From Heligmosomoides polygyrus polygyrus (Eukaryota; Nematoda; Chromadorea; Rhabditida; Heligmosomidae): 64,000 bases of DNA. The stretch is taken from the NCBI GenBank assembly GCA_947396885.1, contig OX377204.1, positions 89,476,728 to 89,540,727 on the forward strand, in the 5' to 3' direction. Below the pieces are notes generated by a model. The model was not told the DNA's origin and did not search any database. It worked only from the letters and a program-made list of their open reading frames with translations. The position numbers and the translations under genes were made by a program. This document shows positions 32,029-54,910 of this stretch, in pieces (position 1 is the stretch's first letter; each line of letters opens with the position of its first letter).

Positions 32029-32160
32029 GGTTCGAATTCCAACGACGTCACTTTTGAAGGTTCGTCTGAACGTACTCAAAGATCGACAAATTCTGTGAGT
32101 GTTCAAGATCTGCACGAAATATCGCGGGCTCGTTCAGTCTCGAGGTCTCGTCAGAATATT
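32029..32160 (+). CDS. Repeat exon 1 (divergent, 44 codons)
   Basis: First exon with the array length of exactly 132 nt in phase 0-0. Acceptor TTTTTCAG, donor GTGAGT. Reads GSNSNDVTFEGSSERTQRST, then NSVSVQDLHEISRARSV and SRSRQNI. QDLHE and the SRQNI end match the array pattern; the first half has diverged. Confidence 0.7.
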
Positions 32161-32218
32161 GTGAGTTTTCCTCAGATTTCATGATCGTTTTTTGTGAATT
32201 TTGAAAAGAATGCTTCAG

Positions 32219-32344
32219 CAGCCAACCACTACTGAAGCGATAGGCGAGACCTACACTGGAAGCACACAGATGTCATCTGCCAGTTTGCATGAGCCTACAG
32301 CTGTAGTGGGCAGCTTGCCAATCGCAAGATCAAGGAGCAGTATT
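32219..32344 (+). CDS. Repeat exon 2 (divergent, 42 codons)
   Basis: Acceptor ATGCTTCAG, donor GTACGC. Ends IARSRSSI; middle reads QMSSASLHEPTAVV in place of YSSRGDLHASD. Confidence 0.65.
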
Positions 32345-32409
32345 GTACGCGATTCAAGCTTTTTGACTGGGTACACTAGCGTTTCCTACTAATCTGCGCC
32401 GAATTTTAG

Positions 32410-32541
32410 CGCTCGAGTGGGATTGAAGTTTTTCCGAAAGAGCACCGCACAAGAGCGAACACGTACTCATCTCATGGAGAATTCCGTGCTTCTGATGCAA
32501 GTTTAAGCGATCAGGCGCTACGCGCCTCGTGTCGGAGCATT
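32410..32541 (+). CDS. Repeat exon 3 (44 codons)
   Basis: Acceptor GAATTTTAG, donor GTAAGT. RSSGIEVFPKEHRTRAN, TYSSHGEFRASDASLSDQAL, RASCRSI. The first exon with the clear array signature. Confidence 0.75.
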
Positions 32542-32601
32542 GTAAGTCTGTTGGCACCGATTAGAGGCATATGACTAGTTGCAAAATGAATATTTTCTTA
32601 G

Positions 32602-32724
32602 CGGGTTAGCAAACCCAGCATCTTAATGGATGACGAAGTGACTACAGCTCGGGAGTACTCATCTCAGGAAAGCTTCCATGCAGCTCGTCAAGACGATCAA
32701 CTATTCAAATCTCAGGCTAATGTG
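32602..32724 (+). CDS. Repeat exon 4 (41 codons)
   Basis: Acceptor TTTCTTAG, donor GTGATT. RVSKPSILMDDEVTTAREYS, SQESFHAARQDDQLF, ends KSQANV instead of SRQSI. Confidence 0.65.
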
Positions 32725-32949
32725 GTGATTTTTATGTACCTTGAACAATTTTGTTTACAGTCAAGGGTATATTGGTACCAAGGCGCAGAGATCACCGTGT
32801 GCCTTAACCAAAACAGCTTCAGCTAAGAAGCTCACGTAGACTGTTCGGTGAAATCCGCACTTTTACGAGAGATTGATCCTCCATCAAAAATTTTCTGGTA
32901 CTTTGCGTGATTGGGTGATTATTAGTGGTGACGATAGGCAGTCGTCTGT

Positions 32950-34053
32950 CTAGTTCTTCGCGCGTGCGGCATTAGGAAGGCCATCTATATCGATGACGTT
33001 ATGCGTGGGCCCCACAGGAATCGTTCTCAGACTGCCTTGCTTCATGGTTGTTGGAGCAAGCAGCTGCAAATGTTGAAAGGAGACGAGTAAACAATGGAGC
33101 TGAGAACTCACATTGAGGATCACATTCAAGGAGCGCCATCTCTGAGATCTCTGAGGTGTCTCTATTGATGTAGAATAGTAGAGTGAAGAATCGAAGGGAG
33201 CATGTAAAGAGCTTAGTCCCAGGTTCAGTGGCTTACGGGTCGCCAAACGTCTGCTTAGGGCTACTCAGCCAAACTCTAAAAACAGAACGACTAGGTTTAC
33301 TGGACTTCACGACCTTTCAACCTTGATCAGAAAGGAAAACTCACTTGTTGCATAGGATAGGGTAAAATAAGATCCTCAAAACGGTTGGCGTGAGAATTGG
33401 CTACGCTCTATCGTATTTGTGCGATCTCGTTACGGAGTGTCGGATCTGCAGAAAAATCGATAAATCGGTATTGTTCGGCCGGTCGATACAGTTGTGTTGC
33501 TGTAAATCCTGTCTGAAGGCCATCATATTGGAGTAATTCCTGCAAGCCATAGTGATTCTTTCGAAGAAACGGCCGCGTGATTCCCACCTCAGTGGATCGA
33601 ATCTGAGCGAAAACCAGCAACACCGGTAGAAAAATCAATACCGTCGATCGATATTTGCCGCATTATTGAACCGTACCATCTGCTGTGAAGTCGATCCATC
33701 GGCCATCATAATCGCGTTCCTCTTACTCCAGTCGAACAAATCTGGGCGAAAACTGATAACTACGGCGGAATATCGATAATGTCGATCGACATCGGTCGTC
33801 CGATCGAGTTCCTCCTCCCTTTTTGGATCTGACCATTTTCCGCCAATTTTCTCCATTTTCATCGACTGCGCTTGATGGAAACCTTGACAGGTTGTACATG
33901 TACGTGCAAGTTAATTCACGTTTCCAGTTCACGTGCAGGTTTCGACAAGTTTCACAGGTTTACACAAGTTTGTACACAAACGCACACACTTGTACGGGCA
34001 GACGGACTAACGCCTTTCCATTAGTAGGGCTATTATTCAATTTTATTTTATGT
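32950..34053. other. Intron with two unidentified - strand frames
   Basis: Frames at 33408-33638 (begins MIFLPVLLVFAQIR) and 33635-33862 (HYRYSAVVISFRPDLF) are adjacent on the - strand and lack low-complexity features. They could be a decayed element gene. I recognise neither. The sequence 33890-33990 is rich in short GTTTACAC-like repeats. Confidence 0.25.
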
Positions 34054-34168
34054 TGTTGGGTTGATCGAAAAGTCTTGCAACACTTTACGCTAGTGCCTGT
34101 TAAATTTGTTAAAGCTCTTACAGTATTGATCTCCTCAAGCATACTATATATGGCTTCGTCGAGCAACA

Positions 34169-34526
34169 ATGTCAACGATAAGCTGCATCCTACGACCTAA
34201 CGTCCACTACGAATTTTTGCAAGGCCATTCCGCAAGGACTGCAGCCTCCAACATCTGCGCTGCATTCAAGGAGGAAGTCGTTCACTATTCCACAGTGGCC
34301 CGTTGGTATCAGCCCTTCAAGGCTGGAGATATCTCTCTCGAAGATCGCCCTCGTTCCGGACGCCCATCTGTTGTGGAAGAAGACAGCCTTCGCGAAGCCT
34401 TCAAGGTGGAGCCAAATTCAACCACTCGCGAATTGGCGGCGACACTTGGATGGACGCAAAGCACCGTCGTGAGGCAGCTGGAGATCCTTGGGTACCGCAA
34501 AGTTTTGTCGTCTTGGGTATCACATG
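34169..34526 (+). pseudogene. mariner transposase N-terminal part
   Basis: FLQGHSARTAASNICAAFKE, RWYQPFKAGDISLEDRPRSG and ELAATLGWTQSTVVRQLE form the two helix-turn-helix motifs with the RPRSGRP hook between them. The frame reads to SSWVSH, where it is interrupted. It resumes at 35358 with ELRGSDKACRIG. Confidence 0.8.
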
Positions 34527-35348
34527 GGTTCGTACGTTAGGTGTTTTCCTGGGTTACGGTAGCGCGCCACCGCCGCCCGCCCCAATTACGGTAGCGTGGC
34601 GGGTTGTTGAGCCCGCCTTGGGTGAAGTGCAACGGACCGTTGCCGGAAAACTGGTCCGCTTGGATGATGCCGAGGCGGCGCGCGGTTTTTCGTCATGTCG
34701 TCTCGTGCACTCCACGCCTCCCTGTTCGCCACACCCCGGAGTCCCTTCCCTAGCCCAATCTGGATACTGACTCTGCTCATCTGACTCTCGCCGCTCGCGC
34801 GTGACGGAATTTTTCGGGGACCAGTTCACATGTAATCTTTTTTTCTCTTCTAGTTTTCATATGCTTTGGGCTCTGAGTGACTCCTGCTGGGGTTCATCTT
34901 ATTATGCACTTTAACGAAGGCAATAAGGATCACGTGCTAATAAGACTGCACTCACTAACGAACTACAAAACAAGTAAAAGAATACAAGGAGAAGTTGAAA
35001 AGGGAACATGGCCTGAGCGAAAGCTACAAAGCTGTAGTACACTAAAGAAGTGTAAAAAAGGAACAAATTTGACGTGTTGTTCTTATTATCATTTCAACAT
35101 TGGAATCTCAGAGGCGACATGTTGTCGGGCCCAAAACTTGCAGAAGAGAAGAATACAGAGCAAAAAATAAGGAGTCAGGTCCGGTATAGTTCTGCACGGA
35201 ATCTGCTCCACGGCGGCAATGCGCACTCTGCTCAACTCGCCTCATCTCCTAGTGAAATCTTGTCCGTGGTGGGCGCGACACCAGGTCTGCCTACGGTAAT
35301 CGAGCTCCGCCCCTACAGTAATGAGAGACACTTAACGTAACGCACTCG
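34527..35348. mobile_element. 822 bp insertion with 9-bp target duplication
   Basis: TATCACATG is repeated at 34518-34526 and 35349-35357. Removing the insert with one repeat restores the mariner frame (SWVSH|ELRG). The termini are imperfectly inverted (TTCGTACGTTAGGTGT against ACACTTAACGTAACGC). A 9-bp duplication suggests a Mutator-like element. No transposase. Confidence 0.75.
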
Positions 35349-35357
35349 TATCACATG

Positions 35358-35835
35358 AGCTGCGGGGCTCTGACAAGGCATGCCGAATCGGTGTTGCAGA
35401 GTCGCTGCTTCTTCGCAAGCACAGAAAGCATTTTCTGAAGGACGTTGTTACTGGTGATGAAAGCTGGGTTCTCTATGTTAACCACACCCGCAAGAGCCGA
35501 TGGCTCCCACGTGGAGAACTGGCTCGCAGACAACCTAAACGTAGACACCACGAAAAGAAGGCTCTTCCTTGTTGCTGGTGGGCATGCTTTACTGTAGGTT
35601 GCTGGATAGTGAGACCCCAGTCACAGCATCTGTCTACGCTACCCAACACCAGAGCTTGGCCGACGCCATGCGCCAAAAAAGTTCGGAACGGGAGAATGTC
35701 TACCTGCTGCACGACAACGCGCGTCCTCATGTCGCAAAAGAGAGTCGCGAGAAAATCCAGGAGTTAGGCTGGGAAGTTCTGCCCTATCCACCGTACTCTC
35801 CAGTCCTCGCTCCTTCTGACTACCACTTGTTCTGA
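35358..35835 (+). pseudogene. mariner transposase C-terminal part
   Basis: ESLLLRKHRKHFLKDVVTGD then ESWVLYVNHTRKSRWLP (first Asp); after a frameshift, ENVYLLHDNARPHVAKESRE (second) and YPPYSPVLAPSDYHLF (third). A stop follows at once, where active mariners continue about 40 residues. Confidence 0.8.
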
Positions 35836-36439
35836 AGCAGCATCTTCGAGGTAGAGAGTTCGATGATCGACGTCAACTGGAAATGGAGGTTTCTGAATTA
35901 TCTTCCTCTCAGTCCTCGGAATTCTGGCGGAAAGGAATTGAAAGGCTGTCTGAAAGATGGGCAGGATCTTAGACTTGGATGGGGAATATATCGTGGACTG
36001 AGTTTTTGTTTTAGCAATTAGGGACAAATTTGAATATTGTTGTGCTAGTGTTTCAAGACTTTTCGATCAACCCAATAATATGCATACCTTTTATTATCCT
36101 TGTTTACTTGAACGGTAATGTGTCCACTCCTCTCCCGCCAGCATCGTGGCAGCAGTGATGATAAAGTGCGACGCTAGTCAGTCTCCGCTTGGAATGCAAC
36201 ATGCGTTCTAGTTTTACAAGATGTTGTGAATGCAGTTCGAATGTGTATTAGGCCTACACAACGAGCTAGGGTGGCAAGCCGGTGGGCAAATCAACGTTTT
36301 ATTGTTGCCGACAAGTCGTAAGCCAATTCCTTTTTTGAGGTGTGGTTGTTACGGTTGGCTGGGACGAAACCCGGATCAAGAACTTAGAACCTTTCACGTT
36401 CAATGCTGATGGAGTGTTGCACGGTCACCATCCATTAAG

Positions 36440-36580
36440 GAGCCGAATTCATTAACGACTAAACCGCGGGTATATGGGGTAGACATACCCACGGTGAAAC
36501 CTTCGTCTCTGTCTTTTACCTTATCGCTACCCCTTATACCCCGCATACCTGCGGGATTAATTGTTGATGAATCCCGCCCT
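36440..36580. mobile_element. MITE with GAATTCATTAACGAC arms
   Basis: AGCCGAATTCATTAACGAC and inverse GTTGATGAATCCCGCCC; inner repeat GGTATATGGGGTAG with its inverse. Same family as 15795-15949. Confidence 0.6.
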
Positions 36581-36909
36581 TGATTCTATCGTCACACCCT
36601 GGTGCGCTACCAACATGGATTTAAATCGCTGCGCGCGGGAAAATGTTTGGACTGAAGAGGGCTGTTTTAAAGTAAGATCCGGGCGGTTTATTGGTGACGA
36701 AAACGTTCCGTAGTACAGTGACCGTAACGTGGTGAGAGAGTGCGAGCTAGTCGCAGCCCGAATTTCGTCATCCTGCGCTGCTTCCCGCGTTTGGCGCGAA
36801 TCGTAGCAGCCAGACGTGTGCCGCTTGCCTTCCCTACCGGTCTTATTGGTTTTATCACTTCTTGTCTTCGGTAGCGCCTGAGCTTGACGATATATTAGCT
36901 CTATTTCAG

Positions 36910-37044
36910 CGTACAAGCGAGATCAACATTGCACACGAAGGCCACATCGACACTGCTCCATTCAATGGATCGCACACAAACCTTCACGAGTCTGTTGCGA
37001 AATTGAATCAGGAATCCGTGATGGAAAGATATCATCAGAACATG
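36910..37044 (+). CDS. Repeat exon 5 (45 codons)
   Basis: Acceptor CTATTTCAG, donor GTGCGT. RTSEINIAHEGHIDTAPF, NGSHTNLHESVAKLNQES, ends RYHQNM. Divergent but same layout (R-T-S start, NLHES middle). Confidence 0.65.
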
Positions 37045-37105
37045 GTGCGTTTTTTGCGATTCTAAAGGAATACTCGATTACAAAGGTAGTAACTTATTCT
37101 TTTAG

Positions 37106-37273
37106 GAGCCGCAGACTGATGTCTTAAATGGCGCTCCGATTAGATCATACCAAAGTCGCAGCAGTCTTCGCTGCTCGGATGCACATCTGAATCAGCCATC
37201 TGTCGGCGGTAATCTGCACACTGTGGACACGAACTTAAATAACCAGCCGCTCGCTGCTTCTCGTCAGAGCATG
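37106..37273 (+). CDS. Repeat exon 6 (56 codons, duplicated middle)
   Basis: Acceptor TTCTTTTAG, donor GTGAGT. Longer because the LH..D..LN part occurs twice: SLRCSDAHLNQPSVGG, then NLHTVDTNLNNQPLAASRQ and SM. An internal duplication within the module. Confidence 0.7.
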
Positions 37274-37732
37274 GTGAGTTTTTCAGCATTCCGTTAATCC
37301 ATGGCTTTCCGAAAGACGCAGTGGCGACGTTGTAGTCTCATGACCTCAACGACTGAAAAAAATCGCTTCTGTGCGGCTGTAGGGGAAGGGAAGGGGAGGG
37401 ACCCTCCCTGCTGGATGTGGATCTCTTCGTATGTACTGCTCACTGTAGGTGGGAATGTTGCACTCACCTAGCCATGGCCCACCTTAGCTCCAGGCTCCCA
37501 TTGAAATATCATTCTGTTGCTTAAAAAATAGAGCAACTGCACGCCTGTAAATCCCATCGCAGCAAATCCTCCCCCAAACTTCATCTAAGCCACTGTTTCG
37601 GAATCTGACAAGTTTATAAAATTTCTACCGATCACAGCTAGTCCGGGTGATGGGGTCGAGATCATCTTTTTTTATTTATTTTTGTGTTGCGCTAATCACG
37701 ACGCCCTCTATATGATTGGCCTGAATATTGTG

Positions 37733-37930
37733 GTCCCTGGAAAGTGGCCTCGAGGGCACTTGAAGCAACGTTGGCTAGACACGTTGCTTTTGGATATAAA
37801 ATAGCTGATGTCCATCCCCATTAAACAGTTGATAACAGACCATGTTTATCGTAGTTGGCATCACTCCTCCAGAAGAGCGGACCCCAACGTCAAGCGGGAC
37901 ACGCTAAGGAAAATGATGATGATAATTTAT
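37733..37930 (+). pseudogene. Non-LTR retrotransposon RT C-terminal remnant
   Basis: PGKWPRGHLKQRWLDTLLLD, then after a stop RSWHHSSRRADPNVKRDTLR. This is the conserved C-terminus of nematode non-LTR polyproteins (PRGRP.QRW and RRADP..RD), followed by an ATGATGATG tail typical of 3' ends. Confidence 0.6.
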
Positions 37931-38147
37931 CTATTTCAAGCAGTGATGTTCGCGGACAAGGAACAGAACTGGAACAAAAATAATTTCCAACGCTAGGTGG
38001 TTGGCACAGTTAAAAAATACAGTGCGAGTAGCACTAGTGAAGCAGAAGTAACAGATTTTCCAAGAACTAAAGAACAAGAAACAAGGTATAATCTACATAC
38101 GTGTGAGAGAAAATGGAAGAATTCGGAGAGTTTCTAAAATGCGTCGA

Positions 38148-38640
38148 TTTATGTCGTCGTTACTTCGAATGTGTCAGTTAGCCGAGATGATACAGTTTTA
38201 TTCGACTGACGTTTCGGCCTAATCGCCTTCTCGGACCCTGGAAAGCCAGAAATGCGTAAAATGATCCCACCAAACACCATTTCAAACTGAGAGAATAAAT
38301 TCAAAGGGCATCTGTGGATTCTGACCTTTAGAGCCTCTTGTCAAGGGCCGCGGCACGTCTTCTGGGTCACTTGCTAGCCATTTGGTCTGAGGGCGACTCC
38401 AGCGAGTTCTTCTCCGCATCTCTAGGTGAGCGTTCTAGCTTCGGTTGCATGGTTCTTTTTTGGTCCACTCGGCCCTTCGAATTTGCTCTCTCAGTTTGAA
38501 ATGGTGCTTGGTGGCATAATCTTACGCGTTTCTGGCTTTCCAGGCTCCCACAAAGGCGATTAGGCCGAACGTCAGCTGAATAAAACTGTATCATCTCGGC
38601 TAACTGACACATTCGAAGTAACGACGACATATCCACCATG
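38148..38640. mobile_element. Foldback of the AAACGTCAGC family
   Basis: A palindrome of about 490 bp. GATGATACAGTTTTATTCG and CTGACGTTTCGGCCTAATCG on the left are inverted at 38560-38610. No protein encoded. Confidence 0.65.
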
Positions 38641-39240
38641 CCGAGATTTATGGAAAGTCGAACATGCAGTATTATGCGTCGATTTACTTCAAAACGAGGT
38701 TTTGGGTGCCGCTAGGCCTCTACGAGCACGCAGAAATATGTAATTTGAGATTTTGGGTGTCGGTGTTCCCTACCTCTACTAACCTAGCTCTAGACCTAAC
38801 AGAAATATGCGTTCAACACCTTATTAGCTGAAGGCTGCCTAGGAATGCGGCTTAGTGCTTTTAGAAATCGCAAAAAGCTGGTTGTCCCTCAGTAGCGCTC
38901 TTTTCCGTTTCATTTTTAGTCTACTTACATATCTAGCTAGCGGAAAGTGCCGTATTTGCTTTGCTTTGCTGTTGTAATATTTTTTAGGTTTACTTGTCTT
39001 ATTTATTTACAGCTTTATATGTCCGTCATAGATTTCTCCATTCTGATTTTCGTTTTTCTTTCTCAATATCTTCCAAAATTGCGATAGCGGAAGACTTTAC
39101 AATTAGAGAGATGGGGTTGCTTGAATTCTGTTTCCGCGTTTGTTTGTTTTAATGCCTTAACTTGTCCACCTACTAGTGGACGTTCGCGGATAAAGATAAA
39201 GATAAAGATAAATATGACCGTTAGAATTTAACTAAAGTGC
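38641..39240. other. Intron with retroposon tail
   Basis: No gene. Near 39188-39215 the hexamer GATAAA is repeated four times after CTAGTGGACGTTCGCG, which looks like the 3' tail of a retroposon. Confidence 0.45.
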
Positions 39241-39404
39241 ATCCAGGGATAAATTTTTCCTGAAGGAGTTCATGTTTGCAAGCACTTCAGCTGAATTTTA
39301 GCGATCCTGTCTCGGATGGGTCTTGCTTATCACAAACGTCGCCCATGGACGATCCCATGTGTTCGTATTGTCATCTATTCAAAAGATTAGTGGAAAGAGA
39401 TGAA

Positions 39405-39505
39405 AAGATTTTTCATCTATTGATGCTCCCGATGAAATCTTCACACCACGCATGCGCGGCTAAATATCCAGCCACTCACTGGAAGTCATCAGAGCATACT
39501 GCAGT
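39405..39505 (+). pseudogene. Broken repeat exon
   Basis: The array pattern survives at the DNA level (GAAATCTTCACACCACGCAT, then CCAGCCACTCACTGGAAG and TCAGAGCAT) but with a stop, indels and no donor GT. The same broken exon is at about 51760-51860, so it was already dead or was copied as part of a block. Confidence 0.55.
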
Positions 39506-39564
39506 TTCTCTACTCCAAACAAATTGCATTTATGGAAAGCATGACGAACAGTTTTCCTTTTCAG

Positions 39565-39690
39565 CGGAGTTCCTATGATGCCGCTCACGAAGATTTCGCC
39601 ACTGGTCATGCTTACTCATACCAGGACGATCTCCACGCTTCGGATAAAAATCTGAGTAACCAGCCGTTTGGTGCATCTCATCGTAGCCTA
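39565..39690 (+). CDS. Repeat exon 7 (42 codons)
   Basis: Acceptor CCTTTTCAG, donor GTAAGA. RSSYDAAHEDFATGHAYSY, QDDLHASDKNLSNQPFGAS, HRSL. Near-identical to 51921-52046. Confidence 0.85.
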
Positions 39691-39746
39691 GTAAGATTCC
39701 AAATTTTCGTGAGGTTAACATTTGATGAAGTACTGTGGCTATTTAG

Positions 39747-39878
39747 CGAGTGAGCACTTGTAATGTCGTCGGTGAGGGCGACCTTGCCACTGGTCACGCT
39801 TATTCGTCGCGAGGAGATCTTCACGCTTCGGATGCGAATCTGAGTAACAAGCCGCTTGCGGCGCCCCATCATAGCTTG
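39747..39878 (+). CDS. Repeat exon 8 (44 codons)
   Basis: Acceptor GCTATTTAG, donor GTAGGT. RVSTCNVVGEGDLATGHAYS, SRGDLHASDANLSNKPLAA, PHHSL. First of three units spaced exactly 352 bp. Confidence 0.85.
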
Positions 39879-40098: not shown

Positions 40099-40230
40099 CG
40101 TGTGAGCACGTACAGTGTTACCGACGAAGGCGATCTCGCCACTGGTCACGCATATTCGTCGCGAGGAGATCTTCACGCCTCGGATGCGAATCTGAGTAAC
40201 AAGCCGCTTGCGGCGCCCCATCAAAGCTTG
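40099..40230 (+). CDS. Repeat exon 9 (44 codons)
   Basis: Acceptor CCAGTTCAG, donor GTAGGT. RVSTYSVTDEGDLATGHAYS, SRGDLHASDANLSNKPLAA, PHQSL. Identical to exon 10. Confidence 0.85.
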
Positions 40231-40450: not shown

Positions 40451-40582
40451 CGTGTGAGCACGTACAGTGTTACCGACGAAGGCGATCTCGCCACTGGTCA
40501 CGCATATTCGTCGCGAGGAGATCTTCACGCCTCGGATGCGAATCTGAGTAACAAGCCGCTTGCGGCGCCCCATCAAAGCTTG
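40451..40582 (+). CDS. Repeat exon 10 (44 codons)
   Basis: Same sequence and splice sites as exon 9, 352 bp downstream. The following intron diverges after about 40620 (GGGACAACTTTATAATGGGC), marking the end of the tandem unit. Confidence 0.85.
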
Positions 40583-41360: not shown

Positions 41361-41492
41361 CGTGTGAGCACCTACAGTGTTACCAACGAAGGCGATCTCG
41401 CCACCGGTCGCGCTTATTCGTCCCGAGAAGATCTTCACGCATCGGATGCGAATCTGAACAACAACCCGTTTGCGGCGTCTCGCCAAAACTTG
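41361..41492 (+). CDS. Repeat exon 11 (44 codons)
   Basis: Acceptor CTTGTTCAG, donor GTAGGT. RVSTYSVTNEGDLATGRAYS, SREDLHASDANLNNNPFAAS, RQNL. Confidence 0.85.
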
Positions 41493-41922: not shown

Positions 41923-42054
41923 CGTGTGAGCACGTACAGTGTTCCCAACGAAGGCAATCTCGTCACTCGTCACGCCTATTCGTCGCGAGAAGATCTTCAC
42001 GCTTCGGATGTGAATCTAAGCAACAAGTCTCTTCCTGCCTGTCGTCGGAGCGTA
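41923..42054 (+). CDS. Repeat exon 12 (44 codons)
   Basis: Acceptor CTGTTCAG, donor GTAAGT. RVSTYSVPNEGNLVTRHAYS, SREDLHASDVNLSNKSLPAC, RRSV. Confidence 0.85.
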
Positions 42055-42117
42055 GTAAGTTTCCTGGCTCTAAAACTTGAAGACTTGCCTTAACAGTGTG
42101 TTCATCTTAATCTAATA

Positions 42118-42231
42118 GCGCACACAGTGACATGAGCGAAGAAGCTGTCACGGGTCGTGCGTATTCAAGAGATCTTTACCATGTAACTGGAGATGTAGAT
42201 CTTAGTAAATCTAGATTCCTCGAGTCTCGAG
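42118..42231 (+). pseudogene. Broken repeat exon (MSEEAVTG type)
   Basis: Aligns with the intact exon at 53380-53511 (MSEEAVTGRAYSRDLYH), but it has lost bases after the acceptor, so the frame is shifted, and it ends in a stop (CGAGGGTAG) without the SRQS codons. Confidence 0.65.
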
Positions 42232-42442
42232 GGTAGGCAGCATTTGGAAGTGAAAACGCGGCAGACAGTCAGGCCACGTCGCCGGCGTGTCATTCAGCGC
42301 ACTCGGAACCTTATTGGCCGGCATGTATTCGGTAGATGTTGTGCTTGGTTGTGATTGGATGATGCCCACCTCCAAACGCTGCTCACCTTTGCGAAGTGGG
42401 CTTAAATCTCTATAAGATAGATCTCACCAGGGAAGGGTCTCA

Positions 42443-45454: not shown

Positions 45455-45583
45455 CGCGCGAGCTCATGCAGTGTTGCTAGCGGCGGTGTTGCTACCGGCC
45501 ACGCTTATTCGTCCCGCGGAGGTCTCCATGCTTCCGATGTAAATCTCAGCGATCAACCGCTCGCTTCGTCTCGTCAAAGCGTT
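45455..45583 (+). CDS. Repeat exon 14 (43 codons)
   Basis: Acceptor TGATTTAG, donor GTACGC. RASSCSVASGGVATGHAYSS, RGGLHASDVNLSDQPLASS, RQSV. Confidence 0.85.
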
Positions 45584-45639: not shown

Positions 45640-45768
45640 CACGTGAGCACCTGCATTGTTCCCACTGAGGAAGATCTCGCCACCGGGCGTGCCTATTCAT
45701 CTAGAGATCTTCACGCGTCAGACATGAATCTGAAGGCACAAACACCTGCTACACCTCATGGGAGCATT
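45640..45768 (+). CDS. Repeat exon 15 (43 codons)
   Basis: Acceptor ATCTTTTAG, donor GTAAGG. HVSTCIVPTEEDLATGRAYS, SRDLHASDMNLKAQTPATP, HGSI. Confidence 0.85.
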
Positions 45769-45825: not shown

Positions 45826-45957
45826 CGTACGAGTGCTTGCGATTCTGCCATTCAGGGTGACCTTGCCACTGGTCAGGTTTACTCGTCCAACGGAGATCTT
45901 CATGCTTCGGCTGTGAAGCTAAATGACGAATCGCTTGCAGAATTGCGTCAAACCATG
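45826..45957 (+). CDS. Repeat exon 16 (44 codons)
   Basis: Acceptor CTAATTTAG, donor GTGAGA. RTSACDSAIQGDLATGQVYS, SNGDLHASAVKLNDESLAEL, RQTM. Confidence 0.85.
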
Positions 45958-46013: not shown

Positions 46014-46145
46014 CGCGCGAGTAGTACCAGTGTTGTGAAGGAGGATGGTCTGGCCGCAGGCCACGTCTATTCGTCTAGAGGCGATCTTCACGCTTCGGCT
46101 GCGAGACTGAACGACAGATCGGTAGCGGGATCACGTCGAAGCCTG
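46014..46145 (+). CDS. Repeat exon 17 (44 codons)
   Basis: Acceptor CCATTTAG, donor GTGAGA. RASSTSVVKEDGLAAGHVYS, SRGDLHASAARLNDRSVAGS, RRSL. Confidence 0.85.
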
Positions 46146-46202
46146 GTGAGATTTAACTGTTTCGTACAATTAATGAAACTTGCTATTAAGAAGCTCGTTT
46201 AG

Positions 46203-46325
46203 GTTGTGAGCAACTCCAGTGTCGCGAACGAACACGATTTGGCCATTAGTCACGCATATTCGTCTCATGGGGATCCGCGTGATGTGCTCAGTAGCGCGCC
46301 TCTTGCTGCATCATGTCGAAGCATT
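46203..46325 (+). CDS. Repeat exon 18 (41 codons)
   Basis: Acceptor CTCGTTTAG, donor GTGAGC. VVSNSSVANEHDLAISHAYS, SHGDPRDVLSSAPLAAS, CRSI. The LHASD core is altered to PRDV. Confidence 0.8.
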
Positions 46326-46413: not shown

Positions 46414-46539
46414 CGTGTGAGCAGCTGCAGTGTTGCCAACGAAGATGACCTTGCTACCGGTCGGGCTTATTCATCCCGAGATCTCCATGCTTCGGATGCG
46501 GATCTGAGTAATCAACTTGCTGCCTCTCGTCAGAGTATG
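46414..46539 (+). CDS. Repeat exon 19 (42 codons)
   Basis: Acceptor CTTATTTAG, donor GTGGGT. RVSSCSVANEDDLATGRAYS, SRDLHASDADLSNQLAAS, RQSM. Confidence 0.85.
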
Positions 46540-46649
46540 GTGGGTTCCTAGCATTACTTCAAATTTCGAAATGCTTCAAATCGCACATCCTGCACGCAAG
46601 CGCCTACAACTTTACGGATGAGGGTGGCCTTGCCACTTTCTAACGTCTA

Positions 46650-47977
46650 CAGGGTGGCTGAAAAGTTCGGGCAATTTTTCAAAGTGTTTCAGCAGTACGA
46701 AAAAACTACATAAACGCCAAAGATTTACAAACAAAAATAACAGAAACTTCATTAGATCAACAACAACATAATACAACAGGAAAATTCACAACAAGTGCTC
46801 AAAATTTCCTCCTTTGGCTTCAATACATTTTCGCAGTCGTTTTGGGAAGTCGCTGATGATGGTCGCACACTGCTCCGCTGTAATCTCGTCCCAGGATCTC
46901 AACAACGCCGATTTCAGCTGCTCAACGGTGGCGTATCTTGTAGTGGAGATCTTCTGCTCCATGATCGACCACACAGAATAATCCATCGGGTTGAGATCAG
47001 GCGAGTTGGATGGCCAGATGTCCCTGCTCCAAAACCCTGGGAAGAGCTCCTCGCAAACGGCGATCGTGGATTTGGCGGAATGCGCTGGTGCCCAGTCCTG
47101 CTGAAGAGAAAATCCGGTTTCGCCAAAATGGCTCGTCGCCCACGGCTCCAGTACGTCGCGTAGGACATATTGCTGGTAGCTGGCAGCGTTAATTTTGACG
47201 TTCTGCTCCATGAAGACCAGCGGCGTCTTTCCGGTAGCGCATATTCCAGCCCACACCATCACCGAGGCTGGAAAATGGCGGCGGCTGATGGTCCTTGCGG
47301 CCGACGTCTTCTGCTGACCCTTCTTAAGCAGCTGCCTGCGATTCTGATGGTTGTGAACCGGCTGGACCGTGAAGATCTTCTCGTCGGTGAACAGCACCTT
47401 CGACAAGCGACCATCGCCGACCAGCTGACGCATTCGCCTGCATTTCCTCAACCTCTCAGCTTTCATCGCGTCGTTGAGGAAGTGAATACGAGCTACTTTG
47501 TAGCTGCGTAATCCCAGCTTCCTCCTGGCAATATGCTGGACTCGTTCCCTACTGATCCCGAGATCCGTAGCCATCTTGTTCATCGATACCTCAGAATTCC
47601 GGCTAATGCGACAACGAACCTTGTTGATGTTCTCCGGTGTTGTCGCAGTGGTGGGACGGCAGCTGCGGGGACGGTCCGAGGTCCCGCCAGTCTCCTTGTA
47701 GCGTCTTACAATCTTGTAGACGGTCCTTTGTTTGAAGCCGGTTGTTCGAACTATGTCCGCGGTCCTCATTCCCGTCTTGTGCAGCTCGACGACGGTGATA
47801 CGCTCACTTTCACGAGACATAACGCAAGCACAACTGAAAACGAGAAAACTGGAGCAACAGATTCTAGATCAAAATTGCGCGAGGAATACAACGGAAACAA
47901 CAGAAATAACAAAAAACCTCAATTTCAAGGCCAAAAGTAGCGCCGCAAAAAATTGCCCGAACTTTTCAGCCACCCTG
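46650..47977 (-). mobile_element. Intact maT-type (DD37D) Tc1/mariner transposon
   Basis: 1328 bp. Inverted ends of about 30 bp, beginning CAGGGTGGCTGAAAAGTTCG, flanked by TA on both sides. It carries one complete transposase gene. Arms and gene are intact, so the copy is young and may be autonomous. Confidence 0.9.
46786..47820 (-). CDS. maT transposase, 344 aa, apparently full length
   Basis: The N-terminal helix-turn-helix region spans about residues 1-105 (ADIVRTTGFKQRTVYKIVRR; ATDLGISRERVQHIARRK). Catalytic triad: D146 in KVLFTDEKIF, D242 in LQQDWAPAHSAK and D280 in DLNPMDYSVW. Thirty-seven residues separate the last two, the DD37D spacing of the maT family. These enzymes cut the element out and insert it at TA. 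The start is the first ATG after the terminal repeat, 157 nt from the element end, a normal distance. No stop or frameshift is seen. The opposite-strand frames here are shadows. Confidence 0.9.
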   Translation of the reverse strand: MSRESERITVVELHKTGMRTADIVRTTGFKQRTVYKIVRRYKETGGTSDRPRSCRPTTATTPENINKVRCRISRNSEVSMNKMATDLGISRERVQHIARRKLGLRSYKVARIHFLNDAMKAERLRKCRRMRQLVGDGRLSKVLFTDEKIFTVQPVHNHQNRRQLLKKGQQKTSAARTISRRHFPASVMVWAGICATGKTPLVFMEQNVKINAASYQQYVLRDVLEPWATSHFGETGFSLQQDWAPAHSAKSTIAVCEELFPGFWSRDIWPSNSPDLNPMDYSVWSIMEQKISTTRYATVEQLKSALLRSWDEITAEQCATIISDFPKRLRKCIEAKGGNFEHLL

Positions 47978-48055
47978 TATATGTCTCAGAGAAAACTGCA
48001 GGCTTCAAATGCAAACCTGAGTATGCGACCGCTTGATGCGTCGCGTCGAAGCATT

Positions 48056-48769: not shown

Positions 48770-49052
48770 GTTGATACCAATAGGATTGTTGGAGTCAAGA
48801 TTGTTAAACACACTTTATTCGGCTGACGTTTCGGCGTAACTGCCTTCTTTTGAGCCTTATGGAAGTAGCCAAGAGGCTGGTGCGTCACCCTCGGATGGAG
48901 GTGAATCCACGCAAACTGCCTCCATCCGAGGGTGACGCACCAGCCTCTTGGCTGCTTTCATAGGGCTCTGAAGAAGGCGGTTACGCCGAAACGTCAGCCG
49001 AACAAAGTGTGGTTAACAATCTGGGCTCCACAGCTCGAACAGTCCTATTGGA
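48770..49052. mobile_element. Foldback of the AAACGTCAGC family
   Basis: CGGCTGACGTTTCGGCGTAA and AGGCTGGTGCGTCACCCTCG on the left arm are inverted on the right. Perfect inner arms of over 30 bp suggest a recent copy. Confidence 0.7.
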
Positions 49053-49053
49053 C

Positions 49054-49739
49054 TCAATAGGTCATTTTGGAAATCTCCATGGGAAGTTCATTGACCCCCT
49101 TGAGGAAAGCACGAAGCACTGAATTTTTCAGCGGTCGGCCACCGCCTGTCAATACTCGAACATAACACTCTTTCATGGTATCCACGAGAAATGTGATGCG
49201 CGGATCATCCCAAAATGGGGAGAGGTTAACATTGTCCGTTATCCTGATCTTCCCAAGCACTAATTTATCCTCCAGCGTGGCGGTGGTTAAAGGAATAAGG
49301 ATAATGAACGGTGATAGTGTTCCCTTCTGGGTGCACCATGCTTTCTGCCTCTGCGGGATGTTGTGGAGGCAATTTGTATCAGCCTATAATAGAACTTGCG
49401 GTGGCCAGGAAATGGAGAGGTCCGTGCTGTATCCTTTCCATGCATGTTTGGCCCCAAGTTTTCGACCCCTGAGGGTGAAAGGTTTGTCTCTGGCTTGAGC
49501 AGGAAATCCGAATCAAAGGCCTGGACGGGGACGCATGCGACAGCCGGGTCCACCTCGCCTACATTACCCAAGCAATGTAGCGATGGCAGGAAAATGAAGG
49601 CTTGTTTGGTACCCTGCGATGCGTCTGCGTCGTCTGCGATGTAAGAATGCGTCTTAGAGCCTCTCAAAATTATAGCAGTCTTGGTAATCAGCTTAAGAAA
49701 GCATCTGGGAGATTGTGCAAGGAGCACGACAATACTCAA
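49054..49739 (-). other. Unidentified broken coding-like region
   Basis: Two - strand frames (49287-49739 and 49054-49260) follow each other. The second reads ITDNVNLSPFWDDPRITFL and ECYVRVLTGGGRPLKNS, which looks like ordered protein rather than noise. A frame break lies between them. I do not recognise the family; it is probably a transposon gene remnant in an intron. Confidence 0.3.
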
Positions 49740-49792
49740 TGAAAGTTCACAAGGTCTTTAAGGATTTCTTTTATCAATTATCACTCATCTAG

Positions 49793-49922
49793 CGATGAGC
49801 AGCTGCAGTGTTGTCAATGGAGTTGATCTTGCAACTAGTCCTTCATATACATTCCGATTAGATATACGTGCTTTGGATGTGAATCCGAGCAATAAACCGC
49901 ATGCTTCATTTCGGCAGAAGCT
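49793..49922 (+). pseudogene. Broken repeat exon
   Basis: Acceptor CATCTAG is present, but the first codons are CGATGAGC instead of CGNGTGAGC, a one-base deletion. The rest reads SSCSVVNGVDLATS then RALDVNPSNKPHAS in the shifted frame, and no donor follows. Confidence 0.65.
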
Positions 49923-50269
49923 TTCGAAGCGCTAAGCGTGGATTCCACTCCTGCTTGACACAAAAGTTCATCGCAATAGAGATTGCTCGTAACAGCATAA
50001 AATCTCCATAGCGGCCACTCCATGCCTAAATAAAAATGGGTAGAACTTGCTAATGTGGCTTACAAGGGGAGACAAGAGTGTGTCAGCCAATTAGGTCGGA
50101 TAGAATTGTCGTGCCAGCACAGCACGCGCGTTCGATCGGTGCTCTGATTCGATGAGGTCCTCTCGCTTCCTCCTGCTGTCCATCTTAACGACCAGTACCC
50201 CGAAAATGTAAATGTAAATCATTATTTGGTCTATTAGGGACTATAACAGAGAATAATCTGCTCGTTCAT

Positions 50270-50401
50270 CACACAAGCACCTTCAAGGTTGCCAAAGACG
50301 ATGATGTTTCAACTTGTCTCGCGTATTCGTCCCATGGAAACCTTCATGCTTCGGATGCGAATCTGGATAAGCAACCTATTTCGGCATCCCGGCAAAGCAT
50401 C
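50270..50401 (+). pseudogene. Repeat exon with intact frame but lost acceptor
   Basis: Exactly 132 nt open in the array frame (HTSTFKVAKDDDVSTCLAYS, SHGNLHASDANLDKQPISAS, RQSI) with donor GTGGGT. The acceptor position reads CGTTCAT instead of TTTAG. The nearest AG (50276) would shift the frame. Likely skipped. Confidence 0.6.
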
Positions 50402-50480
50402 GTGGGTTGCAAAAATTTTACTCTCGTATATGTAACCGTTCCATTAAAACTAATGGCTGGACGAAATTTACGACGTTTAG

Positions 50481-50603
50481 CGTGCCAGCACCTGCAATGT
50501 CGCTAGTCATGGTCTTGCTGGTCATCCCTATTCATCTCGAGGAGAACTTCATGCTTCTGATGTGAATCTAAAGCAACCACTTACGGCTTCTCGTCAAAGC
50601 ATG
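50481..50603 (+). CDS. Repeat exon 20 (41 codons)
   Basis: Acceptor GACGTTTAG, donor GTGTGT. RASTCNVASHGLAGHPYSS, RGELHASDVNLKQPLTAS, RQSM. Confidence 0.8.
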
Positions 50604-50666
50604 GTGTGTTTTTGAAATGCCATAAAGTTCTCTGGATTGGATACTCTGAATATAGTCCTCACTTAG

Positions 50667-50798
50667 AACACAAGCTCCTACAACGTTGCTAGCGACGGTG
50701 GTCTTTCTACTGCTCAAGTTCATTCATCCCGTGAGAATCTTCACACTTCGGATGCCAATCTGAGCAACAAACCACTCACTGCATCACGTCAAAGCTTG
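50667..50798 (+). CDS. Repeat exon 21 (44 codons, GC donor)
   Basis: Acceptor CTCACTTAG. NTSSYNVASDGGLSTAQVHS, SRENLHTSDANLSNKPLTAS, RQSL. The donor is GCAAGT, a rare but accepted GC-AG intron type. Confidence 0.75.
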
Positions 50799-50859
50799 GC
50801 AAGTTTCCAATTTTTAAGTTCTGTAAGTTTAAATATCGCTATCAAATGTGCGTATTTAG

Positions 50860-50991
50860 CGGGCGAGCACCGATGGCGTTGCTAACGAGGACGATCTTGC
50901 TACTGGTCACGCTTATTCTTTCCGAGGAGATCTGCATGCTTCGGATGCAAATCTGGGCTGTAATCCCCTCGCTGCTTCACGTCAAAGCGTT
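50860..50991 (+). CDS. Repeat exon 22 (44 codons)
   Basis: Acceptor CGTATTTAG, donor GTGAGT. RASTDGVANEDDLATGHAYS, FRGDLHASDANLGCNPLAAS, RQSV. Confidence 0.85.
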
Positions 50992-51043
50992 GTGAGTTTC
51001 ATCCCATTCGACGCCGTGAATTTCGCCAAAGGTGTTCTCGTTT

Positions 51044-51072
51044 AGCACCTGAGTCTTTGCAGTGTTGGGGCT
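51044..51072 (+). pseudogene. Truncated repeat-exon stub
   Basis: Acceptor CTCGTTTAG and the first eight or so codons (HLSLCSV) remain, then unrelated T-rich sequence. An insertion or deletion has removed the rest. Confidence 0.5.
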
Positions 51073-51589
51073 CTCCTCTTTTTTCCTGAATTCGCTCCTT
51101 CTCCCATCTTCTTTCCATTTGTTCCCCTTTCTCTCATTCTCTTCGCGCTTTCCTCTTCACAAAAGAGTTACATGAGAAATGGAAAACTAAGGTCTGTTTC
51201 ATGGGGGGGGGGGGAGTGAGGAAATCCGCCTTCATACTTTTTATTTCGATATTTTCTGACAGCCTGGGTTGAATGAAGAAATTTAAGTTGTAACTCGCTG
51301 ACAAGCAATCGAAGAGAGGTGTTATGTTTTAAAAAAGTTTGTTTAAAATGAATTAGCGTAACGAACCACCTGGCTTTTTGTATCCTTATTATCCTTATTT
51401 TTACTTGTCGTATTTTTATTTATTTGAGAATGAGAAAATCAACCGCAACAGAGTTACATGTTCCTCATTCATCTAGGAGCCATAGAGTTACACTGGGGCA
51501 GCCATGAGATCCTTCGGTTTAACACTGAAATTGGTGATAGGCTGGAACTCCTATTTGGCGGAAATATATGCATAGAGAGGAGTTAATCG
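51073..51589. other. Intron sequence
   Basis: No gene. A pyrimidine-rich stretch (51075-51170), a G11 run near 51205 and AT-rich sequence. Confidence 0.5.
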
Positions 51590-51920
51590 TTGTTTAGTCA
51601 AGGAGATCTCGCTGATCCTTTCCGACACGATTCAGCTGTGTGTGGAGATCGTTCTTGTTTCATAACCTTGCTGAGCTTCCTACTTCGTCGCTTTTATTTG
51701 TTGTATATATCCCATCTGTGTCAACATTGTCATCTGTTCAAAAGATTAATGGGCAAAGATGGAAAAATTTTCATCTGTTCATATTCCCGAAGAAATGTTC
51801 ACACTACTCATGCGCGGCTAAATATCCAGCTACTCACGAGTACCCCTCAGAGCATACTGCGGTTTCTACATTTTTAGGATTGCATTTGCGAAGAGCATGA
51901 CAAACAGTTTTCTTTTTCAG

Positions 51921-52046
51921 CGGAGTTCCCATGATGCAACCAAAGAAGATTTCGCCGCTGGTCACGCTTACTCATACCAGGAAGATCTTCACGCTTCGGA
52001 TAAAAATCTCAGTAACCAGCCGTTTGGTGCATCTCATCATAGCCTA
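51921..52046 (+). CDS. Repeat exon 23 (42 codons)
   Basis: Acceptor CTTTTTCAG, donor GTGAGA. RSSHDATKEDFAAGHAYSY, QEDLHASDKNLSNQPFGAS, HHSL. Paralogue of 39565-39690. Confidence 0.85.
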
Positions 52047-52102
52047 GTGAGATTCCAAATTTTCGTGAAGTTAACATTCGATGAAGTGCTGTGGCTATTT
52101 AG

Positions 52103-52234
52103 CGAGTGAGCACTTGCAATGTCGTCGGAGAGGGCGACCTTGCCACTGGTCACGCTTATTCGTCGCGAGGAGATCTTCATGCTTCGGATGCGAATCTGAG
52201 TAACAAGCCGCTTGCGGCGTCTCGTCAGAGCTTG
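52103..52234 (+). CDS. Repeat exon 24 (44 codons)
   Basis: Acceptor GCTATTTAG, donor GTAGGT. RVSTCNVVGEGDLATGHAYS, SRGDLHASDANLSNKPLAAS, RQSL. Paralogue of 39747-39878. Confidence 0.85.
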
Positions 52235-52462
52235 GTAGGTGTTTCGTAGGATTCAATCCTAGTTTGGTGGGACTTTATAATGGCAAATGGGCGCACCTCC
52301 ACAGCTTCACCAACCTTTACCAGGGTGTGGCAGAAGTCCTCATATCGGAAAGCAACAATTGAAGCTATCGAGCAGATAGTTAGCAAAGCACGCAGTTTGC
52401 CTACCGACTAGGGTTAATATTTGCCTTTGTATTCAAAGCTCAGTGTGAGTGTGCCTGTTCAG

Positions 52463-52594
52463 CGTGTGAGCACGTACAGTGTTACCAACGAAGGCGATCT
52501 CGCCACTGATCACGCTTATTCGTCGCGAGGAGATCTTCACGCTTCGGATGCGAATTTGAATAACAAGCCACTTGCGGCGTCTCGTCAAAGATTG
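52463..52594 (+). CDS. Repeat exon 25 (44 codons)
   Basis: Acceptor CCTGTTCAG, donor GTATGA. RVSTYSVTNEGDLATDHAYS, SRGDLHASDANLNNKPLAAS, RQRL. Confidence 0.85.
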
Positions 52595-52828
52595 GTATGA
52601 CTTTGATGTCTTGTAGTGTTTAGTCCTAGCAAGAAGGGAGAACTGCATAGTGACAACAGCGCCTCTATTGTCACTTTAATCGTAACTTGTACTTGCTCGA
52701 ATTTCTCCATATAATAAAACGAATGAAGTCCTCACATGAATAGAGAGGAGAACACGAGGTTTACCCTGCCGATTAGGATTAACCCTTGCTTGTATTCGGA
52801 GCTCTGAGCGAATAATGTCCTTCTTCAG

Positions 52829-52960
52829 GGTGTGAGTACCTGCAGTGTTGCCAACGAAGACGACCTTGCCACTGGCCACGCTTATTCGTCGCGAGGAGAC
52901 CTTCACGCTTCGGATGCGAATCTGAGTAACAAGCCAATTGAGGCGTCTCGTCAAAGCTTG
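52829..52960 (+). CDS. Repeat exon 26 (44 codons)
   Basis: Acceptor TTCTTCAG, donor GTAGGT. GVSTCSVANEDDLATGHAYS, SRGDLHASDANLSNKPIEAS, RQSL. First residue Gly instead of Arg. Confidence 0.85.
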
Positions 52961-53196
52961 GTAGGTATTTCGTAGGCTTTAGTCCTAGTCTGGAGGTACA
53001 GCTTTATAATCACAATAGGGCTCCATTTCTATCTATTGCTATATCAATCTTTACCAGGGTGCATCTGAAGTGCTTATATCATAAAGCAACAAATGAAGCT
53101 ATCGAGCAGATAGTTAGCAAAGCACGCAGTTTGCCTACCGACTAGGGTTAATATTTGCCTTTATATTCAAAGCCCAGCCTCAGTGTGCCTGTTCAG

Positions 53197-53325
53197 CGTG
53201 TGAGCACGTACAGTGTTACCAACGAAGGCGATCTCGCCACTGATCACGCTTATTCGTCGCGAGATCTTCACGCTTCGGATGCGGATCTGAGTAAGAAGCC
53301 GCTCCCTGCCTCTCGTCAGGATCTA
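53197..53325 (+). CDS. Repeat exon 27 (43 codons)
   Basis: Acceptor CTGTTCAG, donor GTAAGT. RVSTYSVTNEGDLATDHAYS, SRDLHASDADLSKKPLPAS, RQDL. Confidence 0.85.
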
Positions 53326-53379
53326 GTAAGTTTCTTCACTTTAAAGCCAGAAAAAGCCTAAACGATGTGGTCGTTTTAG

Positions 53380-53511
53380 CGTACCAGCGTGTACAATGTC
53401 ATGAGCGAAGAGGCTGTCACTGGTCACGAGTATTCACAAGGAAATCTTCACGATGTGATGGGAGATGTGAATCTCAAGAATCAGCCTATTACCAGATCTC
53501 GCCAGAGTCTA
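53380..53511 (+). CDS. Repeat exon 28 (44 codons, MSEEAVTG type)
   Basis: Acceptor CGTTTTAG, donor GTGAGT. RTSVYNVMSEEAVTGHEYSQ, GNLHDVMGDVNLKNQPITRS, RQSL. Intact counterpart of the broken exon at 42118. Confidence 0.85.
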
Positions 53512-53567
53512 GTGAGTCACTAACATTCTACGGAGTGAAGTTTCATAAAAATGTTCGATCGTTAAAG

Positions 53568-53699
53568 CTGGCGAATGCCAACGAAGGAGCTAGAGGAAAC
53601 GAAGTTGCCACGGCCCAAACACATTCTTGCCATGAAGATCTGCAAGCCTCGGATGTGAGCCTTAACCGACAGCCGCTTGCTGCCTCTCGTCAGAGTATT
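53568..53699 (+). CDS. Repeat exon 29 (44 codons)
   Basis: Acceptor CGTTAAAG (unusual), donor GTGAGC. LANANEGARGNEVATAQTHS, CHEDLQASDVSLNRQPLAAS, RQSI. Confidence 0.75.
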
Positions 53700-54781
53700 G
53701 TGAGCTTCTTCAACGCTAGGCAGCTGTAGTAGTACTAGTGTAGTTGCATCCTCAGCTGAATCGCATCTAACACCTGAAACTCTGTGTCTTGGGGTTCTGT
53801 CAGTTCGGTGAAATTTTTAAGTTGACTTAATTTTTGTCACATTTTAATTCAGTATGCTACTTTGTGTAGATTGAAAAAATCAACACAGTAATATCCTGTT
53901 ATATAAATACCATAATACTTACCTATCATGCTAACATAAAACTGTTAGTCCTTCTGTCTGGGTGTGTATCACAAACCTGTGTGAGCCTTGAAACGTATTG
54001 AATATGCAAAGGAGACGAGCTTGTGCAAATGGCGAACGTAGCCGAAAACTGGCAGAAAATGGCCGAGTTCGACAGGTAGAAGAGATGAACCGGTAGGGTG
54101 ATCTAGATCTAGGAGGGGGTCATTACATGAAACAGTCCTTACAAGAGGTTCTGTGTTGCTCGAAATTAAAATTTTTGTACAGCAATGGTGTTCTACCTCA
54201 GCGGTGAGCTTAGCTAGGCCACCTCTGTCATGCGTGTTCATACCGATGTAGATAACCACTTAACGCACGTTGACCTCCGAGCCAGAGTGTGCCTTAACAT
54301 CTAATGCGTAATATCATTTACCAGACGTTCTGCGTCCTATCGGCCGCTGACGTCTGGTTCTAATATAGGATCTGCCTTTTGTCTTTCCGTTGGAAGAAAG
54401 AAAAGAGGCGGAATTACATTCACTTGAAAAGAATATGAATATAGACTGTACCCTACAAGTAAAAGAGATTTAAGACTTCTTTTTGGAGCAATGTACAATG
54501 TACTGTAGGTGCTTTTCTTGTTCTTTTCTTCTTGTTCATGAAGTTACAATTCTGTAGAATTTCGAAATATTCGTTTTCACCATCCGACATGGAATATTGA
54601 AAACAACACTAGCATCCTTCTGTTTTCTTCAAGATTTCGGAGAATGCAATCCAAGATCTTAAAGATTTTTTGAAAAGTGTAACGTTTCGCCGCTGAGATC
54701 GAACTACATTCTATGCATTTTATCAGTGTCTTGGGACGCCTAATTTCATTGCTACAGTAAGTTATCTGTGTTCGATTTTAG
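53700..54781. other. Intron sequence
   Basis: No gene. 54100-54250 carries the GTTCTACC...TAGGCCA-type repeat also seen near 2820 and 3630. Confidence 0.5.
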
Positions 54782-54910
54782 CGCTCAAGCTCGCTCAGCG
54801 TCGGGAAAGAAGATGAGCTTGCCACAGCTGTATATCCTTCCCACACAGATTTTGACACCTCTGATGCACATTTCGGTCAAGAGGTGCTTTCTAGCTGCCG
54901 TAGAAAACTG
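54782..54910 (+). CDS. Repeat exon 30 (43 codons, divergent)
   Basis: Acceptor TCGATTTTAG, donor GTGAGT. RSSSLSVGKEDELATAVYPS, HTDFDTSDAHFGQEVLSS, CRRKL. Last array exon before the assembly gap. Confidence 0.75.

Follow-up and report, generated by a model that had tools for sequence, protein, structure and literature searches.

A tandem array of symmetric phase 0-0 exons that probably lies within one protein-coding gene of Heligmosomoides polygyrus polygyrus

What kind of gene would carry several dozen diverged copies of one short exon in a row? The question is raised by a stretch of 64,000 nucleotides from the nematode Heligmosomoides polygyrus polygyrus (GenBank assembly GCA_947396885.1, contig OX377204.1, positions 89,476,728 to 89,540,727 of the forward strand; hereafter the window), in which copies of a module exon of about 44 codons occupy 32029-54910 on the plus strand. 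The original prediction, made from the letters of the window, had described about 37 copies here, thirty of them intact phase 0-0 exons with AG/GT borders and about seven broken, and our analysis confirmed this description, with one donor being GC. An nhmmer DNA profile, built from the array copies themselves, detected 35 copies on the plus strand (E 0.0073 or better) and weak matches alone on the minus strand (E 0.5 or worse); two divergent first exons (32029 and 32219) were added by eye from their splice borders and frame, giving a total of 37. The broken copies have lost the acceptor or the donor, contain a stop, or are missing a part. We examined 100 kb of flanking DNA on each side of the window, with coordinates continuing the window numbering. 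The array is truncated at 55045 by an assembly gap and resumes past it, so that the copy number is a lower bound and the predicted extent, correct for the copies within it, does not mark the limits of the array.

The intact exons in the window were uniform in their coding properties. All 30 follow an AG acceptor, ending in TT[TC]AG, 29 precede a GT donor, and all are divisible by three in length and open in phase 0-0. Their lengths range from 114 to 168 bp and are exactly 132 bp (44 codons) in 16 cases. Under a first-order Markov model the mean chance of an open frame per exon is 0.22, with a product over the 30 exons of ~1e-20, and the remaining two sense frames are open in just 3 and 4 of them. 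A splice-plus-codon scan, trained on 28 of the 30 exons and partly circular for that reason, recovered 28 of them and, with the threshold unchanged, returned nothing on the opposite strand; when the threshold was lowered and all phases were allowed, that strand yielded 3 and 4 weak candidates. Past a second gap, 14 further and more divergent 0-0 exons follow the same plan between 86547 and 94326, each with AG...GT borders. In the window and beyond, all 44 intact exons are 0-0, bordered by AG...GT/GC and divisible by three. The 29 introns between intact exons of the window are mostly short, 14 measuring at most 70 bp and 22 at most 500 bp.

The original prediction had held that coding exons of this kind should show an excess of silent over replacement changes, and this excess was found. 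Across 11 exon pairs between the array and a second copy of the locus, described below, 35.3 silent changes over 362 sites and 44.7 replacement changes over 1108 sites correspond to a dN/dS of 0.40 (Fisher p 1.4e-4), in a comparison that omits exon 2 (32219) and the first module exon, which is frame-shifted, and in which 4 of the 11 pairs were formed by best match and not by position. Comparison of the array exons with one another gave a pN/pS of 0.47 for the 60 close pairs and of 0.53 for the full set of 435. Among 24 same-length pairs of more than 80% identity, which are not independent of one another, differences at codon positions 1, 2 and 3 numbered 82, 111 and 224. Furthermore, over 31991-39720 the seven exons are 97.1% identical between the locus copies, non-exon sequence 95.0% and short introns 92.0%, and in two exon pairs the locus copies are set apart by indels of 3 and 6 bases that keep the frame.

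The modules appear to be confined to a single locus. When one module sequence was searched against the whole genome (656,174,362 bases in 1130 contigs; match counts are lower bounds), all 29 matches at E 0.001 or better fell within this locus. The copies are considerably diverged, with a median pairwise DNA identity of 0.58. Twenty-three of the 30 modules in the window, taken without six that are divergent or of a different size and without one exact duplicate, give the consensus RxSxxxVxxExDLATGHAYSSRGDLHASDANLSxxPLAASRQSL; over 35 modules, some of them beyond the window, the consensus is weaker. The modules are rich in Ser, Ala, Arg and His, span 33-56 residues (exons of 99-168 bp overall) and share an initial R-x-S, a central YSSRxDLHASD and a terminal SRQS. 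Counted in 44 modules, R-x-[ST] occurs 56 times, compared with 30.7 +/- 4.8 in shuffled sequences. The joined model, excluding the exon cut by the gap, comprises 2348 residues (Ser 16.9%, Ala 10.1%, Leu 8.0%, Arg 7.5%) and is poor in Lys. It has no hydrophobic segment: its highest 19-residue hydropathy is 0.82, and a membrane segment is therefore not expected.

Within Pfam, PDB sequences and the worm's own genome, and within NCBIfam for the unique exons, the module family appears to correspond to none that is recognised, which supports the original prediction of a modular coding array that could be matched to no family. Two Pfam entries reached their cut-offs in total score, AbrB-like PF14250 (27.6 vs 25) and VirK PF06903 (25.4 vs 23.7), yet no single stretch passes in either case; we took the totals as sums of weak repeat scores and did not assign the modules to these families. 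All other Pfam matches of the modules were below cut-off. A five-module stretch compared with PDB sequences at E up to 5 gave as its sole match a LAG-3 chain (E 0.32). The unique exons had no Pfam match above cut-off, one weak match in NCBIfam, which was run on these exons and not on the modules, and no match below E 0.17 among PDB sequences. At the level of titles and abstracts, nothing matching a gene of this type was found in the literature. An identification as PAT-12 gained no support, and at the same level none of the literature on Clarinet, anillin or PAT-12 was found to bear on the gene.

Candidate parts of the gene were read on both sides of the array. Upstream, the exon at 17162-17320 is the best candidate for the start; in the whole-genome search it was reported here and at its twin, 62089-62247, and nowhere else. 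It carries no signal peptide as judged by eye and hydropathy. Because the exon lies inside a long tract that is identical between both locus copies, its own conservation there cannot be taken as evidence of coding. A frame at 31762 that resembles a signal peptide was rejected as the start, its beginning being absent from the second copy. Downstream, phases can be fitted from the last module through a series of unique 3' exons, with ends picked by eye, to a stop at 125375, and the last exon of the series was reported at one place in the whole genome. An automatic exon chain over 86.5-156 kb scored 276 on the forward strand and 35 on the reverse; its codon model was partly trained on these exons, and the chain includes a few doubtful exons and misses some of those read by hand.

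At its right end the window carries its left part a second time. The piece at 55245-84781, enclosed by two gaps of 200 N, is collinear with 8259-41582 at ~80-95% identity (matches of at least 300 bp and at least 80% identity), and both of its ends match inside that range. Identity between the copies forms a mosaic of perfect runs of up to 648 bp and blocks near 80%. Judging from this arrangement, the piece is probably the other haplotype, left uncollapsed in the assembly in line with its twin. A true segmental duplication is less likely, because both ends of the contig, which lies between two gaps, fall within the stretch covered by its twin, and because the identity is a mosaic. Hyper-divergent haplotypes are reported in both H. 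polygyrus (656.6 Mb) and H. bakeri (649.2 Mb) in an excerpt of PMC10682056. Between shared anchors (39565/82039 and 41361/84560, included in the counts), the first copy holds 5 intact modules (39565, 39747, 40099, 40451, 41361) and the second 7 (82039, 82221, 82540, 82894, 83264, 83632, 84560), and module number thus appears to change by whole exons. Local duplication is visible in the window as well: exons 9 and 10 have the same sequence and are parts of a tandem unit of 352 bp that takes in intron sequence, and a block near 39.4-42.2 kb is repeated at 51.7-53.5 kb.

The explanation that we favour, and hold to be rather probable, is one protein-coding nematode gene with at least 44 symmetric phase 0-0 exons in its middle (30 in the window and 14 beyond), encoding a putative multivalent scaffold or linker. 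Splicing would join these exons to one another and to unique sequence at the N- and C-terminal ends, and we infer that the product would be one cytoplasmic or nuclear protein of ~2350 amino acids or more with little predicted structure. The gene would grow by exon duplication, and the simplest mechanism would be unequal crossing over in which an exon and its intron are gained or lost together. Every such unit contains one complete exon flanked by phase-0 introns, so that units could be added or removed with the frame unharmed. The product may be a flexible scaffold or linker in which each module offers the same short basic and serine motifs, with R-x-S, YSSRxDLHASD and SRQS perhaps serving as kinase or docking sites, and with valency set by exon number. 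It is more tentative, and a possibility to which we give distinctly less credence, that the modules are an undescribed exon-borne family forming a multivalent scaffold inside the cell, with a valency that is naturally polymorphic, the haplotypes of one wild worm differing by whole exons. Were this true, protein length would vary within the population, its frame protected by phase-0 introns, and exon gain and loss would be directly measurable if the two locus copies are alleles. Genes that copy a single symmetric exon offer a clean system for the gain and loss of repeat-protein units, and here recent copies (the identical neighbours), old copies and broken copies stand side by side in one locus. 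Automatic annotation easily misreads such a locus, and the finding flags a probable uncollapsed haplotype in the assembly.

Several observations weigh against parts of this explanation. Exon pair 32602 differs between the copies by 7 replacement and 0 silent changes, and the seven broken copies, together with the frame-shifted first module exon of the second copy, show that constraint on single units is weak. The copying of one motif accounts for part of the R-x-[ST] excess; for R-x-x-[ST] there is no clear enrichment (34 vs 30.7 in shuffles), and dibasic [RK][RK]x[ST] falls below expectation (1 vs 3.5). The original prediction of a disordered protein was borne out in part: AlphaFold2 gave one 44-residue module a pLDDT of 62.3 and a pTM of 0.14 with no secondary structure, and 67% of residues are disorder-promoting, whereas a mean hydropathy of 0.429 against a charge-hydropathy boundary of 0.422 falls slightly on the ordered side. 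The candidate start exon is linked to the array by strand and phase, further exons between 17320 and 32029 are possible, and several 3' exons score low with our own splice matrices. Finally, if the assembly is the same, its authors used purge_dups to strip residual haplotypic duplication, as stated in an excerpt of PMC10682056, and if the second copy is a duplication, the difference of 5 vs 7 modules would be one between paralogues.

The same exons might instead serve as a cassette for protein diversity from which each transcript takes a selection, in the manner of the micro-exon genes of schistosomes or of polymorphic mucins. Any subset of the intact modules would stay in frame, since all are symmetric, the copies differ in sequence to the extent given above, and module number differs between the two locus copies. 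We regard this reading as unlikely: the 14 introns of at most 70 bp have the minimal ordinary length, which in nematodes usually accompanies constitutive splicing, and no signal peptide is apparent in the model from its candidate start, the signal-like frame at 31762 not being conserved in the second copy. Still less probable is a decaying relic that was coding until recently and is now shedding modules. The 7 broken copies of 37, the frame shift in the first module exon of the second copy and a dN/dS just moderately below 1 would fit such decay, and are set against 30 intact exons, the two in-frame indels and a silent excess that holds among the closer copies too.

A link to the gene downstream was also weighed. 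Pfam places an anillin domain at 147820-148011 (E 7.9e-11), the sole place reported in the genome, and joined open frames to ~152.3 kb match human anillin (4xh3, E 9.5e-19). Being the next gene and on the same strand, with anillin-like frames reaching 152323, it could in principle have the array as its N-terminal extension, and a weak donor just before the stop at 125375, used by the automatic chain, leaves a small doubt, as splicing could read on. That stop closes the preceding exon, however, so that the anillin homology and PH domains are not in the same reading unit as the array, and an acceptor followed 3 bases on by an ATG at 126936 resembles a trans-spliced first exon. Pfam found no anillin domain in the modules or the unique exons. 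An extension is accordingly very improbable, and we dropped it owing to the stop and the start at 126936, where, from these signals, a separate anillin gene appears to begin. The chance that the array is a non-coding minisatellite with fortuitous open frames is negligible; tandem copies and local duplications would suit it, and it was rejected on frame retention, which chance would give at ~1e-20, on splice borders and on codon-position bias.

The one-gene explanation invites comparison with known systems. In the titin PEVK region and in nebulin, both from giant repeat proteins, symmetric exons have been duplicated, and the array resembles them in having one module per exon, one intron phase and length change by exon duplication; it differs in that no sequence relation was seen in PDB or Pfam and in that its modules are Ser/Ala-rich and Lys-poor. 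The polymorphic mucins of Schistosoma mansoni are reportedly secreted flatworm mucins in which repeat-unit number varies, and share with the array a varying number of units, differing in being secreted. Dscam exon arrays mainly encode Ig parts. Dscam resembles the present locus in containing tandem arrays of homologous exons; those of Dscam are described as mutually exclusive in an excerpt of PMC1397879. Schistosome micro-exon genes also consist of many short exons, which measure 3-81 bp and encode secreted products according to an excerpt of PMC10526429, whereas the exons here, at 99-168 bp, exceed the 81-bp limit and no signal peptide is apparent in the model from its candidate start. Anillin is the adjoining gene on the same strand, and the array gene has its own stop.

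Table 1 Coordinates of the features read in the window and its flanking DNA
Feature	Position	Strand	Basis or remark
Candidate first coding exon, MMTKDVDNLSV...GVAEAQ, phase 0 end, donor gtacgt	17162-17320	+	open frame, ATG, donor; link to array from strand and phase
Module exon 1, 0-0, divergent	32029-32160	+	by eye and scan; frame-shifted in second locus copy
Module exon 2, 0-0, divergent	32219-32344	+	by eye
Module exon 3	32410-32541	+	profile and scan
Module exon 4	32602-32724	+	profile and scan
Module exon 5, 45 codons	36910-37044	+	partial profile match and scan
Module exon 6, 56 codons	37106-37273	+	profile and scan
Module exon 7	39565-39690	+	profile and scan
Module exon 8	39747-39878	+	profile and scan
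Module exon 9, identical to exon 10	40099-40230	+	profile and scan
Module exon 10, recent copy of exon 9 in 352-bp tandem unit	40451-40582	+	
Module exon 11	41361-41492	+	profile and scan
Module exon 12	41923-42054	+	profile and scan
Module exon 13, 38 codons	44911-45024	+	profile and scan
Module exon 14	45455-45583	+	profile and scan
Module exon 15	45640-45768	+	profile and scan
Module exon 16	45826-45957	+	profile and scan
Module exon 17	46014-46145	+	profile and scan
Module exon 18	46203-46325	+	profile and scan
Module exon 19	46414-46539	+	profile and scan
Module exon 20	50481-50603	+	profile and scan
Module exon 21, GC donor	50667-50798	+	profile
Module exon 22	50860-50991	+	profile and scan
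Module exon 23	51921-52046	+	profile and scan
Module exon 24	52103-52234	+	profile and scan
Module exon 25	52463-52594	+	profile and scan
Module exon 26	52829-52960	+	profile and scan
Module exon 27	53197-53325	+	profile and scan
Module exon 28	53380-53511	+	profile and scan
Module exon 29, weak acceptor, missed by splice-plus-codon scan	53568-53699	+	profile
Module exon 30	54782-54910	+	profile and scan
Start of further module exon, cut by assembly gap	54964-55044	+	by eye
Broken module copy	39389-39498	+	profile
Broken module copy: stop, no acceptor	42111-42242	+	profile
Broken module fragment	46593-46660	+	profile
Broken module copy, 5' part not recognisable	47966-48055	+	profile
Broken module copy, no donor	49792-49923	+	profile
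Broken module copy, frame open, no acceptor at usual place	50270-50401	+	profile
Broken module copy	51760-51855	+	profile
200-N assembly gap	55045-55244	.	
Second locus copy, probably other haplotype (to 84781 outside window); start exon again at 62089-62247	55245-64000	+	collinear with 8259-41582
200-N assembly gap	84782-84981		
Unique 3' exon	101628-101753	+	ends by eye
Unique 3' exon	105131-105247	+	ends by eye; acceptor 0.2, donor 3.9
Unique 3' exon	105358-105474	+	ends by eye; acceptor 0.2, donor 3.8
Unique 3' exon	105610-105744	+	ends by eye
Unique 3' exon, one base over	105817-105895	+	ends by eye; donor 2.6
Unique 3' exon, two bases first	118872-118984	+	ends by eye; acceptor 1.9, donor 4.1
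Unique 3' exon	119058-119210	+	ends by eye
Last exon, with stop at 125375	124950-125375	+	ends by eye

The surroundings of the array were scanned on the plus strand with Pfam over 2001-31999, 94001-104000, 124001-134000 and 144001-154000. Nothing was found at E 0.01 in 2001-31999; the interval 94001-104000 contains one transposase, and 124001-134000 contains transposase-type domains and one weak HTH match. Rfam gave 0 matches in the window at the gathering score. Read by eye, mariner-like transposase frames lie in array introns (34150-36000, and 46789-47868 on the minus strand) and just after the array (55300-56800). A 972-residue open frame on the minus strand (19554-22469), with a stretch that we take to be GIY-YIG-like, may belong to a Penelope-like retroelement, and a 452-residue open frame at 574-1929 resembles, by eye, a reverse transcriptase. 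RGG-rich open frames at ~7.0-7.7 kb (about 7066-7641) are perhaps part of a gene for an RNA-binding protein.

Two sets of repeats precede the array. Related units of 83-208 bp form tandem repeats at 27423-28155 and 29279-29494, with similar translations near 42.9-43.2, 110 and 118 kb. A 42-bp minisatellite at 4177-4325 encodes a 14-residue RRGSEDEPNTASNV-like unit and is dispersed through the genome; the frame containing it at 4141 was considered as a module and rejected as a dispersed repeat (at least 170 matches, found when 150 of 12,931 candidates were scored). Its matches are dense over ~0.6 Mb of one contig (C60, 48.17-48.76 Mb), many of them in long open frames, the longest listed open frame with this repeat being 2013 amino acids.

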